The notes under the pieces were generated by a model that was not told where the DNA came from, ran no database searches, and was given only the letters and a program-made list of their open reading frames with translations. This document shows positions 20,048 through 38,081 of a stretch of 64,000 bases of DNA, piece after piece; position 1 is the stretch's first letter, and each line of letters starts with the position of its first letter. The stretch is from Opitutus sp. GAS368 (GTDB taxonomy: Bacteria > Verrucomicrobiota > Verrucomicrobiia > Opitutales > Opitutaceae): the NCBI RefSeq assembly GCF_900104925.1, contig NZ_LT629735.1:3021001-3085000 (forward strand), given 5' to 3'. The position numbers and the translations under genes were made by a program.

Positions 20048-20082
20048 TTGACCACGGATTACACGGATAAACACGGATCAAG
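20048..20082. repeat. ACCACGGATTACACGGAT dispersed repeat, one arm
   Basis: One arm of the family whose paired forms flank genes of the rhamnose cluster (22199-22361 and 24612-24752). Here the matching inverted arm is missing. A separate hairpin GGCTGGTC-tccc-GACCAGCC follows at 20100-20119. Confidence 0.6.
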
Positions 20083-24570: not shown

Positions 24571-24752
24571 TCACCACTAATCCACACTAATGCTTCACTA
24601 ATCCCTGAGATTTTGACCACGGATAACACGGATTATCACGGATGGATTTCAGACAATACAGGTTCAGTTTCTTCATTAGTGCCCAATTAGTGTGCATTAG
24701 TGGTGACCAAAGCTCCTGCCTTTATCCGTGTTAATCCGTGCAATCCGTGGTT
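24571..24752. repeat. Interleaved dispersed repeats between rhaD and rhaB
   Basis: Four tracts in the order A-B-A'-B': CACTAATCC type (24571-24606), CCACGGATAACACGGAT (24612-24642), CATTAGTGGTGACC type (24673-24711) and TTTATCCGTGTTAATCCGTG (24718-24752). Each primed tract is the inverted complement of its partner, so the two families are crossed rather than nested. They fill the gap and end 10 bp before the rhaB start. Confidence 0.7.
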
Positions 24753-24762
24753 AAAAAACAAC

Positions 24763-26256
24763 ATGGCTTCTAAAACCATCCACTGTGCCGCCGTGGACCT
24801 CGGCGCGACCAGCGGTCGCGTCATCGTCGGCACGTGGGCGAAGAACCGCCTCACGCTGACGGAGGTGCACCGCTTTCCGAACGGGTTCCGTTCGGTCGGC
24901 GGCCACGATTACTGGGACATCCCCGGCCTGTGGACCGAGATCGCCACCGGCCTGCGCCTCGCGAAAAAGCGCTTCCCGCAGCTCGCCTCCGTCGGCGTGG
25001 ACACCTGGGGCGTGGACCACGTGCTCGTCAACGACGCGGGCCGCATGGTGTTTCCCACGCACGCCTACCGCGACGCCCGCACGCAGCCCGGCCTGACGCG
25101 CCTCGCCAACACCCGCGCGGCGCTGGAGCGCATCTACGCCGCGACCGGCATCCCCAACGTCTTCTACAACTCCAGCCTGCAGCTGGAGGAGACCGTCGCG
25201 CACAATCCGGCCGTGGCCGACCTGGCTACGCGCTGCCTCTTCCTGCCGGACTACTTCAACTTCCTGCTCTCGGGTCGCATGGAGAACGAGATCTCCTTTG
25301 CCAGCACCTCGCAGCTCCTTGCCGTGCACGGTCGGGACTGGTCGCGCGCCACGCTCGACCATTTTCATATTCCCGCGACGTGGTTCACGCCGCCGATCCT
25401 CGCCAACACCGTGCTCGGCCCGATTCTGCCCGAGGTAGGGCGAGTCCTCCGGACGAGCCGTGAATCCGCGAAATCCGGTGCAAAGCGCGGCTCGTCGGGA
25501 CGACGCGCCCTACCTGACATCAAGGTTGTCGCCGTGCCCGGCCACGACACCGCCTGCGCCTACGACGCCATGCCGGCCAATCCGACGGGCGGCGACCTCT
25601 ACATCAGCTCCGGCACCTGGTCGCTCGTCGGCTTCGAGAGCGACACGCCGCTGCTCGGTCACGAGGCGCTCACCGCGCGCATCTCCAACGAGCGCACCGG
25701 CGACGGCCGCTACCGCCCGCTGACGAACGTCATCGGCCTGTGGCTGCTGGAGCAGACGCTCAAGGATTTCACGGCCCGGCCGAAGAACGACGCGGAGTGG
25801 GTGAAGCTCATTAATGCTAGCTCTAAGCTTACAGCTTTAAGCTTTAAGCTGGATTGCACCGACCCCGCCTTCGTGAACCCGTCTTCCATGCGGGCCGCGA
25901 TCGACGCGCAGCTGAAGCGCCGGAAACTGCCGCGGCCAAAGAACCTCGCCGGCTATGTCCGCCTGATCTGCGACTCGCTGGGGCAGGGGCATGCCGACGC
26001 CCTCCGCGCCTTCGAGAAACTCGCCGGCCGGAAGTTCCAGCGCATCCTCATCGTGGGCGGTGGCTCGAAGAACCGTCTGCTTTGCCAGGCGACAGCCGAT
26101 GCCAGCGGGCTGCCGGTCCACGCCTTCACCCTCGAGGGCACCGCGGTCGGCAACATCGCCTCCCAGCTTGTCGCGCTGCGCGCCGTGCGTAACCTGAAGT
26201 CCTTCCGCGAGCACTTCGCCAAGCAAATCAAAGCCACCGTTTATCAACCTGGTTGA
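24763..26256 (+). CDS. rhaB: Rhamnulokinase with in-frame palindromic insert
   Basis: 497 residues of the FGGY/ASKHA sugar kinase fold. AAVDLGATSGRVIVG is the N-terminal phosphate loop, GVDTWGVDHVLVN and PDYFNFLLSGRMENE are rhamnulokinase blocks, VVAVPGHDTACAYDAMP starts the second lobe and ILIVGGGSKNRLLCQ closes the adenosine site. It phosphorylates L-rhamnulose. About residues 225-251 are encoded by an 81-bp REP-type palindrome (25434-25514) placed exactly between LGPILPEV and the VVAVPGHD block. A second odd stretch (25810-25855) has AT-rich codons. Both leave the frame open, so the protein is probably functional with a long surface loop. Confidence 0.92.
   Translation: MASKTIHCAAVDLGATSGRVIVGTWAKNRLTLTEVHRFPNGFRSVGGHDYWDIPGLWTEIATGLRLAKKRFPQLASVGVDTWGVDHVLVNDAGRMVFPTHAYRDARTQPGLTRLANTRAALERIYAATGIPNVFYNSSLQLEETVAHNPAVADLATRCLFLPDYFNFLLSGRMENEISFASTSQLLAVHGRDWSRATLDHFHIPATWFTPPILANTVLGPILPEVGRVLRTSRESAKSGAKRGSSGRRALPDIKVVAVPGHDTACAYDAMPANPTGGDLYISSGTWSLVGFESDTPLLGHEALTARISNERTGDGRYRPLTNVIGLWLLEQTLKDFTARPKNDAEWVKLINASSKLTALSFKLDCTDPAFVNPSSMRAAIDAQLKRRKLPRPKNLAGYVRLICDSLGQGHADALRAFEKLAGRKFQRILIVGGGSKNRLLCQATADASGLPVHAFTLEGTAVGNIASQLVALRAVRNLKSFREHFAKQIKATVYQPG
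25434..25514. repeat. REP-like inverted pair inserted in frame in rhaB
   Basis: 81 bp beginning GGTAGGGCGAGTC and ending GACGCGCCCTACC, with inner arms GACGAGCC / GGCTCGTC. An intergenic relative with the same ends is at 33652-33715. The length is a multiple of three and the reading frame GTA-GGG avoids the TAG in the element. Confidence 0.88.
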
Positions 26257-27822: not shown

Positions 27823-29394
27823 ATGAACACCTGCATCGAGAATCCCGACGTCGTCCTGATTGGCAGCGGCGTGATGTCGGCCAACCTCGGCGCCCTGCTC
27901 AAGCGCCTCGACCCGGCGCTGCGCATCCAGGTGTTCGAGGCGGCGGACGAACTGGCCTTCGAGAGCTCGAACGGCTGGAACAACGCCGGCACCGGCCACG
28001 CCGGCATCTGCGAATTGAGCTACACGCCGAAGCGCGAGGCCGACGGCACGGTCAAGGTCCAGAAGGTCATCGATATCTTCCAGGAGTTCGAGCAGTCGCT
28101 CCAGTTCTGGGCGCACGCCGTGGCGAGCGGCATGATCGACAACCCCAAGGAGTTCATCAACCCGGTCCAGCACATCAGTTTTGTGCAGGGCGCGGACGAG
28201 GTGGATTACCTCAAGGCCCGCTACGCCGGCATGTCGAAGCACCACTTCTTCGCCGCGATGGAGTTCGCCACCGACCGCGCGAAAATCGGCGCGTGGGCGC
28301 CGCTGCTTACCGAGGGCCGCGATCCGGCCGTGCCGATCGCCGCCACCAAGATGGACGGCGGCACGGACGTGAATTTCGGCAACGTCTCCCGCAAGCTCCT
28401 CGCCTGGCTCGGTTCGCAGGAAGGCTGTTCCGTGCTGGCTAGCACGAAGGTCGTCGGCCTCCGCCGCGCGGAGGGCGGTGTAGGGCGGGGTCACCGCACC
28501 CCGCCTTCCCTCGAAAAGCAGGCGGGATACGGTGATCCCGCCCTACAAAAGACCCAAAGCGCCAGCTGGCACGTCACCACCCGCAATTCGAAAACCGGCG
28601 AAGAGCGCACCGTTACCACGAAGTTCGTCTTCGTCGGCGCCGGCGGCGGCAGCATCCTGCTCCTGCAGATGGCCGGCCTGCCCGAGGCGAAGGGCCTCGG
28701 CGGTTTCCCCATCGGCGGCCACTGGCTGGTGTGCGACAAGCCCGAGATCGTCGCCCGGCACCAGGCCAAGGTTTACGGTCAGAACCTGCCCGAGGCGCCC
28801 ACCATGGCCGTGCCGCACCTCGACACCCGCATCCTCGACGGCAAGAAGACGCTCCTCTTCGGCCCGTTCGCCGCGTGGACGACGCGCTTCCTGCACCGGA
28901 CCGGCAGTTGGACGGACCTGCCGCGCTCCGTGAAGCCGCACAATCTGGCGACGCTGCTCAAGATCGCCGCCACCAATTTTCCCCTCGTGAAGTATCTGCT
29001 GCAGCAAGGCACGCAGAGCATGGCCGACCGCATGAAGGTGATGCACATCTTCTACCCCAACGCGAAGGCCGAGGACTGGAAGCTGGTGGACGGCGGCATC
29101 CGGGTGCAGGCCATCAAGAAAACCGACGGCGAAGCCGGCATCGTCCACTTCGGCACGGAGGTCCTCACCAGCGCCGACAAATCCATGTCCGCCCTCCTCG
29201 GCGCCAGCCCCGGTGCCTCGGTCTCCGTGGATATCGTCCTCAAAGTGATCAAGGAGAGCTTCCCGCATTTGATCACCAGCCCCCGCATGGCCGAGATCGT
29301 TCCGACCTATGGAACCGACTATCGTGCTCCGGAGAACGCCGCGGTCTTTGCCAAACTAGCACTCGAGGCACGGCGGCGTCTGCAGTTGGTTTGA
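27823..29394 (+). CDS. mqo: Malate:quinone oxidoreductase with in-frame palindromic insert
   Basis: 523 residues. DVVLIGSGVMSANLGALLKRL binds FAD; SSNGWNNAGTGHAGICELSYTP, FVFVGAGGGSILLLQMAGLPE and FPIGGHWLVCDKPE are Mqo-specific blocks; the C-terminal LGASPGASVSVDIVLKVI is also conserved. This peripheral membrane flavoenzyme oxidises malate to oxaloacetate and passes electrons to quinone. About residues 219-242 derive from a 69-bp REP-type palindrome (28479-28547) lying between VVGLRRAEGG and the SASWHVTTRNSKTGEE strand. It follows the rhamnose genes, perhaps because lactaldehyde and DHAP carbon enters the citric cycle; that link is inference. Confidence 0.93.
   Translation: MNTCIENPDVVLIGSGVMSANLGALLKRLDPALRIQVFEAADELAFESSNGWNNAGTGHAGICELSYTPKREADGTVKVQKVIDIFQEFEQSLQFWAHAVASGMIDNPKEFINPVQHISFVQGADEVDYLKARYAGMSKHHFFAAMEFATDRAKIGAWAPLLTEGRDPAVPIAATKMDGGTDVNFGNVSRKLLAWLGSQEGCSVLASTKVVGLRRAEGGVGRGHRTPPSLEKQAGYGDPALQKTQSASWHVTTRNSKTGEERTVTTKFVFVGAGGGSILLLQMAGLPEAKGLGGFPIGGHWLVCDKPEIVARHQAKVYGQNLPEAPTMAVPHLDTRILDGKKTLLFGPFAAWTTRFLHRTGSWTDLPRSVKPHNLATLLKIAATNFPLVKYLLQQGTQSMADRMKVMHIFYPNAKAEDWKLVDGGIRVQAIKKTDGEAGIVHFGTEVLTSADKSMSALLGASPGASVSVDIVLKVIKESFPHLITSPRMAEIVPTYGTDYRAPENAAVFAKLALEARRRLQLV
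28479..28547. repeat. REP-like inverted pair inserted in frame in mqo
   Basis: 69 bp beginning TGTAGGGCGGGGTCACCG and ending CGGTGATCCCGCCCTACA. The intergenic element 37838-37925 has nearly the same ends, and 40284-40310 is a half copy. Length divisible by three, no stop in the mqo frame. Confidence 0.9.
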
Positions 29395-31797: not shown

Positions 31798-32358
31798 ATG
31801 CGACCACTGCGGTATTCACTCAATGTCACCTTGGACGGGTGTTATGATCACCGGGCCGGAATCCCGGATGAGGAGACCCATCGACACGCGACGGAAAGCC
31901 TCGCTGCGGCCGACGCCCTCCTGTTTGGGCGCGTGACTTACCAGCTGATGGAGTCGGCCTGGCGGGAGCCGGGGCGGACGGGCGTGCTGGCCGACTGGAT
32001 GGCGCCTTGGACGATGCCGTTTGCCCGGACCGTCCACGCGGCGAGGAAGTTCGTCGTGTCGGGCACCTTGGCCCAGGTGGACTGGAACGCGGAACTCCTG
32101 CGTGGGGATCTCGGGCTGGCCGTCCAAAAGCTGAAGCAACAGCCGGGCAGGGGATTGTTCGTGGGCGGCGTGAAACTGGCCCAGGCCCTGACCGAACTGG
32201 GCCTCATCGATGAATACGAGTTCATCGTGCACCCCCGCCTGGCGGGACACGGCCCGACGTTGTTCGCGGGGCTTTCAAAGCATGTCGACCTGAAGCTGGT
32301 GAGCCGGCTGGAGTTCAAGTCGGGGGCGGTGGCGTTGCGATACGAACCGAAAAGGTAA
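31798..32358 (+). CDS. Dihydrofolate reductase-like protein (RibD C-terminal domain family)
   Basis: 186 residues. YSLNVTLDGCYDH and ADALLFGRVTYQLM are the first strand and NADPH-binding helix of the RibD-C/DHFR-like family; RGLFVGGVKLAQALTELGLIDEYEFIVHPRLAGHGPTLF is the characteristic C-terminal half. A CTGGAGG ribosome site stands 6 bases before the ATG. Members reduce pteridine- or pyrimidine-type substrates, but most stand-alone ones are uncharacterised. A second copy of its last 40 codons lies at 34598-34720 and a copy of its leader at 36132-36178. Confidence 0.88.
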   Translation: MRPLRYSLNVTLDGCYDHRAGIPDEETHRHATESLAAADALLFGRVTYQLMESAWREPGRTGVLADWMAPWTMPFARTVHAARKFVVSGTLAQVDWNAELLRGDLGLAVQKLKQQPGRGLFVGGVKLAQALTELGLIDEYEFIVHPRLAGHGPTLFAGLSKHVDLKLVSRLEFKSGAVALRYEPKR

Positions 32359-32475
32359 CCACCCGGACCGAGCGTTAACGCAAAGGCGCAGAGTCGAAAA
32401 AAGACGGAGATTAGGATCAATGCCGAAGGCTCTTTGGCCACGAAGAGTCACCAATTAGTGACCAGTTAGTGAAGA

Positions 32476-32727
32476 TTAGGGAGTGTCTTCAAACCTTCAA
32501 AAGAACCACTAATGAGATTTCACCAAGGGTGAAATCCACAGAAACCGCTCCGGCTGATCGCCTGCGCGGTGGGTTTCAGGGGCCCGCTAATCGCGGGCGG
32601 AAAGGGCGGCGATCAGCCGCCCCCTGAACCTGGCGGCGGAGGCGATCAGCCGGAGCGGTGAAAGTAGATTCCGCCGTTGGCGGAATCCTTTTAGTGGTCC
32701 CCTTCCGGGCTTTGAAACCACTCCCTA
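32476..32727. mobile_element. MITE-like element with TAGGGAGTG ends, core type A
   Basis: Terminal inverted repeats TAGGGAGTGTCTTCAAACC and its inverse (GGCTTTGAAACCACTCCCTA). Inside are further inverted blocks CCACTAATGAG...TTTTAGTGG and CCGCTCCGGCTGATCGCC...GGCGATCAGCCGGAGCGG. A roughly 92% identical core is at 36254-36479. TA at both ends is what IS630/mariner-type MITEs show. No coding capacity. Confidence 0.8.
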
Positions 32728-33651: not shown

Positions 33652-33715
33652 GGTAGGGCGAGTCGTCCCGACGAGCCGCTCCGTGCCACGGCTCATCCGG
33701 AGGATTCGCCCTACC
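33652..33715. repeat. REP-like inverted pair, GGTAGGGCGAGTC type
   Basis: 64 bp, ends GGTAGGGCGAGTCGTC and GGATTCGCCCTACC, with inner GACGAGCCG / CGGCTCATC arms. This is the intergenic relative of the element inside rhaB. Confidence 0.8.
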
Positions 33716-34597: not shown

Positions 34598-34720
34598 CGT
34601 CTGGCAGGGCACGGGCCGACGTTGTTCGCAGGGCTGTCGAAGCCGGTCGACTTGAAGCTGGTGAGCCGGCTGGAGTTCAAGTCGGGGGCGGTGGCGATGC
34701 GGTATGAATCCAGGAGATAG
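34598..34720 (+). pseudogene. Fragment duplicating the C-terminus of the RibD-C family gene
   Basis: The last 40 codons (RLAGHGPTLFAGLSK to MRYESRR, with stop TAG) match the end of the gene at 31798-32358 at about 36 of 40 residues. Upstream of 34598 the similarity stops and no start fits, so this is a truncated paralogue. It lies just after the MITE at 34334-34503. Confidence 0.8.
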
Positions 34721-36225: not shown

Positions 36226-36479
36226 GCAGGGGGTGTCTTCCAACCTCCTAAAGGACCACTAATGAGATTTCACCAATGCTGAAATCCACGGAGACCGCTC
36301 CGGCTGATCGCCTGCGCGGTGGGTTTCGGGGGGCCCGCTAATCGCGGGCAGAGAGGGCGGCGATCAGCCGCCCCCTGAACCTGTCGGCGGAGGCGATCAG
36401 CCGGAGCAGTGAAAGTAGATTCCGCCGTTGGCGGAATCCTTTTAGTGGTCCCCCTTCCGAGCTTAGAAAACACTCCCTA
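36226..36479. mobile_element. MITE-like element, core type A, second copy
   Basis: The right end AAAACACTCCCTA is intact; the left end is degenerate (GCAGGGGGTGTCTTCCAACC). The core is about 92% identical to 32510-32720, including the CCGCTCCGGCTGATCGCC palindrome. Confidence 0.75.
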
Positions 36480-37790: not shown

Positions 37791-37837
37791 TGCTTCGCTC
37801 AGTAAAGCGAAAGCGAAGCAATGTCCTAATTTATCAT

Positions 37838-37925
37838 TGTAGGGCGGGATCACCGCATCCCGCCTTCTGCGCCTTGAGGTCAAGTCGCTCGACCCTAAGG
37901 CGGGATACGGTGATCCCGCCCTACA
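37838..37925. repeat. REP-like inverted pair, TGTAGGGCGGG type
   Basis: 88 bp, ends TGTAGGGCGGGATCACCG / CGGTGATCCCGCCCTACA, each end with an inner hairpin. Intergenic counterpart of the insert in mqo. Confidence 0.85.
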
Positions 37926-38081
37926 ACAGAATGCCGCGCCCGATGTCGGGCACCAGCCGTCGCCAAGCCTATGGCTGGCAGGTAAAGCCCGACCTATACC
38001 AAACTGATCCATTACCTGATTTTCCCGATCGCCCGCCGCAATATCGTTGTCGTTCATCCGACCGGCTGACGCAATGACCGC

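Follow-up and report, generated by a model that had tools for sequence, protein, structure and literature searches.

What is a palindrome of 81 bp doing in frame in the rhamnulokinase gene of Opitutus sp. GAS368, and how did it come to lie there? We considered this question in a 64,000-nucleotide stretch of the genome (the window; Table 1), in the genome as a whole (the source genome) and in its relatives. An initial annotation of the window had described a REP-type element, in frame and without a stop codon, lying between two conserved blocks of RhaB and adding about 27 residues, with a relative in an intergenic region nearby.

Table 1. Positions in the window of rhaB, its insert and the other palindromic elements
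Feature	Position	Strand	Basis or remark
rhaB, L-rhamnulokinase (FGGY family), host gene	24763..26256	+	PF00370/PF02782; TIGR02627 361 bits; Foldseek
Family A REPIN (inverted pair of GTAG REPs)	25435..25513	+	79 bp, in frame in rhaB
5' REP arm	25435..25460	+	GTCC/GGAC stem, TCC loop, tandem G-A mismatch; same as REP arm upstream of RAYT gene
Spacer, 27 bp	25461..25487	+	Absent from other copies listed
3' REP arm	25488..25513	-	GTCG/CGAC stem; 1 mismatch to pattern; read on minus strand
Family B REPIN in frame in mqo (27823-29394)	28480..28546	+	Second in-gene REPIN of window
Intergenic family A REPIN	33653..33714	+	Relative of the rhaB copy
Family B REPIN without coding flanks	37839..37924	+	Family B query (span 37836-37928)

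The host gene is an intact open reading frame, and the element passes through it in frame without a stop codon, as described. The product has FGGY domains and a RhaB family match, though below the NCBIfam cut-off: the window RhaB scores 361 bits with TIGR02627, against 358-389 bits for four relatives that lack this insert (among which L059 of the congener G037 bears its own insert in a different loop), all under the cut-off of 528. A low score as a sign of decay was thus ruled out, because those relatives score alike. The AlphaFold model of RhaB (mean pLDDT 88.3) finds its best Foldseek match in E. coli RhaB (2cgj; TM-score 0.87 by query length). Few stretches of the model are weak, and the sole one below 50 comprises residues 240-249, inside the insert (residues 225-251), which ends about 10 residues ahead of the conserved HD motif.

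From NTVLGP to VVAVPGHD, the RhaB loop has 34 residues in the source genome, versus 11-18 in 109 other sequences (11 residues in 65, 13 in 2, 14 in 4, 15 in 1, 16 in 31 and 18 in 6), which come from two overlapping sets with some genes counted twice. Thus, the location given in the initial annotation, between LGPILPEV and VVAVPGHD, is correct in that this is a loop of variable length, but the V of 'LPEV' is encoded by the element itself. The gain had also been set too high. Relative to the commonest length of 11, it is about 23 residues, and the same anchors enclose 105 nt in the window versus 36 nt in G037, a net addition of 69 nt for a 79-bp element. These figures imply that some ancestral bases were lost or replaced at the junction, and that the insertion was accompanied by, or came before, small deletions. 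Among the sequences compared, the extra residues are confined to the source genome (0 of the 109 others), which rules out an ancestral loop that was lost elsewhere. The refuting case named in the initial annotation, close relatives with the same residues, was thus looked for and not found. Since its arms are near the family consensus, the copy is probably young. A second loop of rhaB contains a AAGCTTTAAGC-type simple repeat (window 25811-25848); in G037 this loop contains a REP pair, and it is 2-12 residues longer in some other relatives.

The palindrome runs from GGTAG to CTACC (25434-25514, 81 bp) around a core bounded by GTAG and CTAC (79 bp), the outer bases lengthening it by one base per side. 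A 26-base REP arm is followed by a 27-base spacer and an inverted 26-base arm, forming an inverted pair with a poorly conserved spacer, and the GTAG tag adjoins the hairpin, both as in REPs and REPINs. The family A arm can be written as GTAG + GGC-GA-NNNN-TCC-NNNN-GA-GCC, a hairpin with a tandem G-A mismatch; in the 3' arm of the rhaB copy the first GA is replaced by GC. Folded as single-stranded DNA, the element reaches -30.8 kcal/mol (z -5.4), which is equalled by 0 of 200 shuffles. REPs and REPINs are otherwise recognized by an extragenic location, and the rhaB copy is in a gene. However, we do not treat location as defining for membership of the GTAG REPs, because the text of PMC3733652 counts intragenic units too.

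An arm-pattern search of the 4.15-Mb source genome (up to 3 mismatches) identified 70 half-elements and 0 with the reversed control. These matches and the fold exclude a chance palindrome, and they establish the REP-type nature first proposed for the element, as a multi-copy family of the GTAG REP/REPIN kind. Among 90 arms extracted with a looser pattern (up to 4 errors) from the stretches examined, stems are ATCC/GGAT in 26, GTCG/CGAC in 19 and GTCC/GGAC in 3, the rest being variants or one-base shifts. Both sides of the stem therefore change together, and the TCC loop and the G-A mismatch are kept across the three main stem types. A clean insertion with a fixed target duplication was considered and rejected, given that no consistent junction was found and the only near-constant base is a G before GTAG (84 of the 90 arms). 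The intergenic relative is also real: it is a family A REPIN, and it has its spacer and an AGCGG flank in common with a copy at L012 (778241-778302), so that these two may be parts of a larger repeat. Other repeats in the window include CCACGGATTACACGGATAAACACGG-type repeats at 20048, 22201, 24613, 37294 and 24716-24755, with one inverted copy directly before the rhaB start, and blocks of 108-124 nt repeated at 85-97% identity (32236-32702 with 34598-34719 and 36228-36453).

The source genome also encodes a RAYT that is linked to family A. Nine matches to the Y1 transposase family were found, and one of them passes the RAYT model NF047646 (90.4 bits, cut-off 80). Its open frame (L018:1991-2524, stop to stop) sits between two family A REPINs, and the REP arm upstream of it is identical to the 5' arm in rhaB. 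The stop codon of this gene is the TAG of its own downstream REP. Family B flanks another Y1 match (1775323-1775598). Exact family A matches occur in 11 of 120 genomes of the taxonomic family, these being a sample from a larger group: 48 in the source genome, 8 in G037, 15 in a further congener, G071, and 1 to 65 in each of eight genomes of other genera. In the same search, two other congeners had 0 exact matches.

The rhaB copy is one of many within genes. Family A is in frame at 15 of 47 sites (covering all 70 half-elements) in 12 conserved genes, which encode MnmA, a DinG-like helicase, an LldD-like protein, a WD40 protein (two sites), TatD, HrpA (three sites), RlmD, RlmM, RhaB, NadE, Mfd and UvrA. 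Sites were called in-gene where a home-made codon score exceeded 0.1 on both 150-nt flanks, a threshold chosen after viewing the table. This score flags 12 of 41 sites, or 14 with MnmA and the third HrpA site, which lie 35 and 24 codons from the stop and were added by eye; of six further sites, one (UvrA) is in frame. The frame in which the element is read differs between unrelated host proteins. With 90-nt flanks, 0 of the 47 sites have same-strand coding flanks in different phases. With 150-nt flanks there is one, a single arm at 3381373 (scores 0.21 and 0.61) where a 427-residue open frame stops; this site is ambiguous, and we favour a gene end over a broken gene.

The family B pattern, which includes single arms and some other families, gave 47 sites, one of them too close to a stretch end, and 4 of the 46 evaluated are in frame: TsaD (the sole TsaD match in the genome), Mqo, a MenE-like ligase and Mfd (a third family). 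An open frame at 2071337 (L009) was dropped as an in-gene site owing to the lack of a Pfam match and a poor coding score. The mqo gene is the second after rhaB, and its counterpart in G037 bears, close to that position, a lone REP from a different family. By eye, genes acting on DNA or RNA appear numerous among those decorated: they are those for UvrA, Mfd, HrpA, the DinG-like protein, TatD, MnmA, RlmD and RlmM, as well as TsaD with family B.

We take Opitutus terrae to be in the same taxonomic family as the source genome. The union of REP-style ends with inserts that encode protein segments, to which the initial annotation drew attention, was already published in 2013, when Di Nocera et al. 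(PMC3733652) reported in their main text intragenic GTAG REPs, most numerous in O. terrae. More than half of the intragenic inserts described there are dimers or groups, with a coding length of 20 to 30 residues; both uvrA genes of O. terrae contain double inserts, and RNA helicase genes are also struck. Family A resembles these REPs, as the paper describes them, in its in-gene dimers, several families per genome, a RAYT link and the same phylum. With respect to the main text of PMC3733652, where the one cross-species case is that of different REPs at about the same site in recB of two Xanthomonas species, the source lineage differs in reusing loops at many sites. What is newer is therefore the way in which unrelated families recur in the same loops, not the kind of insert found in rhaB. 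In the accessible text of the literature on REPINs, intragenic REPs and Opitutaceae, PMC8049555 included, nothing is nearer on coding REPs than PMC3733652.

Family A also agrees with REPIN/RAYT systems as set out in the relevant sections of PMC3116915 and PMC8266576. It shares with them an inverted REP doublet with conserved arms and a less conserved spacer, the GTAG tag, a RAYT gene flanked by the same family, and a stem mismatch as in E. coli REPs. REP pairs are the moving unit proposed in the text of Bertels and Rainey (2011; PMC3116915), and RAYTs are described as binding the GTAG-tagged hairpin of single-stranded REPs and cutting nearby (TnpAREP, PMC8266576). In contrast to those REPINs, which are extragenic in the same accounts, roughly one in three family A sites is intragenic. 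The comparison with Rickettsia palindromic elements (RPEs) made at the outset is apt as an analogy, because both are short palindromes in frame in many unrelated genes (PMC3733652 and the review PMC10969869, in the parts that treat them). However, the text of PMC3733652 gives CGTC as the tag of R. conorii RPEs and states that repeats with this tag seem to have no transposase of their own, whereas family A has GTAG, no CGTC tag, and a RAYT.

To compare the occupied loops between species, 18 in-gene sites of the source genome (UvrA left out) were aligned with G037, G071 and an outgroup, and the classes that follow were assigned by reading the DNA. In G037, the same family is present at 3 of 18 sites (RlmD, NadE and Mfd loop A), a different REP-like element at 6 (MnmA, DinG-like, LldD, TatD, HrpA site 3 and Mqo) and a simple-repeat-like stretch at 2 (both WD40 sites), and 7 are empty (HrpA sites 1 and 2, RlmM, Mfd loop C, TsaD, MenE-like and RhaB). 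In G071, with 15 comparable sites, the same family is found at 2 (MnmA, as a single arm, and HrpA site 3), a different REP-like element at 4 (DinG-like, the second WD40 site, Mfd loop C and, in mixed form, TsaD) and a simple-repeat-like stretch at 3 (the first WD40 site, RlmD and NadE), and 6 are empty (LldD, TatD, HrpA sites 1 and 2, Mfd loop A and MenE-like). The tsaD of G071 (L160) is broken after SGGVANNKTL by about 1 kb that looks nucleotidyltransferase-like by eye.

Insertions of at least 7 residues fall within one residue of a source-genome site in 10 of 13 cases in G037 (6136 aligned residues) and 11 of 13 in G071 (4807 aligned residues), counts that include residual ancestral loop residues (TatD and LldD in G071), inserts shared by descent and one off-site row that is an artefact of the broken tsaD. 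The family to which the G071 elements in the DinG-like gene and in Mfd loop C can be assigned has 0 hits in the source genome, against 103 in G071 and 74 in G037. Another family, found 44 times in G037, 43 times in the source genome and 3 times in G071, accounts for the G037 elements in MnmA, LldD and the second rhaB loop.

A wider survey of Mfd (61 genomes searched, 60 matched, 30 loci examined) gave a REP pair in loop A in at least 3 of 30 (the source genome, G037 and G027) and REP pairs of four types in loop C in at least 4 of 30 (the source genome, G027, G015 and G043); these are minima, as DNA was inspected only where a perfect inverted repeat of at least 7 bases was present. In loop C, G054 has one lone REP arm, of the G071-type family, and G046 a different long inverted repeat. 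In G116, which is of another genus, family A pairs occupy both Mfd loops and LldD at the same places (14 stretches inspected of 65 hits). Close matches to LldD were found in 5 of 61 genomes. Among these five, LldD is decorated in the source genome and in G037, that of G027 contains a family A-like element, that of G040 is empty, and that of G047 was unreadable with the anchor used. The site is also empty in G071, which is not one of the five.

We consider it very probable that the rhaB element is a REPIN insert that survives in a permissive loop and was probably spread by a RAYT. A REPIN would here be a non-autonomous mobile unit of two inverted GTAG REP hairpins, and its probable spreader is the genome's own RAYT, a putative single-strand-DNA tyrosine transposase that would recognize the GTAG-tagged hairpin. 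One copy probably entered rhaB, moved by this RAYT, after the split from the closest sampled relatives. It would have been kept because its net change is a multiple of three, its entry frame avoids the TAG of GTAG, it has no internal stop, and it lies in a loop where the kinase is variable; the decorated RhaB probably works. The same process may have decorated at least 12 genes of the source genome via family A alone. Insertions out of frame or in protein cores were presumably removed by selection, with intergenic copies surviving freely and those within genes persisting only where a permissive loop takes up a net change divisible by three. If selection does remove bad insertions, the visible pattern would be one of insertion followed by survivorship.

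An unlikely alternative, which we nevertheless take seriously, is that in-gene REPs are exchanged for, or re-inserted at, an older REP in a docking loop, given that RAYTs act on GTAG-tagged hairpins. The different REP-like elements at occupied sites in G037 and G071 would fit such exchange, as would the agreement of element positions to about one residue between species, the filling of the DinG-like loop and Mfd loop C in G071 by a family absent from the source genome, and the REP pair types (at least four) and single arm in Mfd loop C among 30 orthologues. However, tolerance alone would also yield reuse of a few permissive loops, some sites are empty in each relative (7 of 18 in G037, 6 of 15 in G071), and a nested intermediate was not seen, except possibly the mixed insert in TsaD of G071. 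Permissiveness is thus favoured over attraction or exchange as the explanation for the reuse of loops by unrelated families. We regard as equally doubtful the broader form of the idea, in which conserved Opitutaceae proteins have fixed docking loops where unrelated REPIN families follow one another in frame by GTAG-guided re-insertion or exchange; if it were true, loop sequence in Opitutaceae orthologues would turn over via mobile DNA, not point change.

Readings that give the insert a function, or the gene none, are less probable still. The initial annotation had called the insert tolerated and perhaps exploited. Tolerance of in-gene REPs in this lineage is supported by the many in-gene copies, whereas we see no sign of exploitation, and it is quite improbable that selection retains the added residues for an effect on activity, oligomer state or regulation. 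The insert is near the conserved HD motif, and action on nucleic acids is common among the decorated genes, a pattern that the authors of PMC3733652 suspect in their text is not fortuitous, while also cautioning that placement in loops may make inserts neutral. Against this, the insert is confined to the source genome among the sequences compared, its sequence is dictated by a DNA palindrome, model confidence in part of it is low, and the same element occurs in unrelated proteins in different frames. Very unlikely, too, is a role for the hairpin in mRNA or DNA (stability, pausing or gyrase binding) with the peptide as a by-product. The stable fold of the rhaB element would suit it, and in the NadE insert common to the source genome and G037 third positions match at 16 of 17 in the arms versus 101 of 139 in the flanks, although these numbers are small. 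In the shared Mfd insert, by contrast, the matches are 16 of 21 for the whole element and 66 of 120 for the flanks, and the two species have different stem types in their arms. HrpA site 3 compared with G071 (15 of 17 third positions in the arms) was set aside, as the flank looks misaligned. That rhaB is decaying, and the insert tolerated since RhaB no longer matters, is extremely unlikely: the open frame is full-length, the kinase family match is intact, RhaB scores like relatives without this insert, and single-copy TsaD, NadE and UvrA are likewise decorated.

The observation of 2013 is extended here to a complete genome, for which family counts, empty sites and a linked transposase are given, and to sister species, in which unrelated palindromes reuse the same loops. 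This reuse offers a direct test of plain survivorship against targeted or serial re-insertion. It is also a warning that protein loops in Opitutaceae can be misread as functional insertions. The decorated proteins constitute a natural experiment on the amount of foreign peptide that a folded protein can accommodate, and on the positions at which it can do so.
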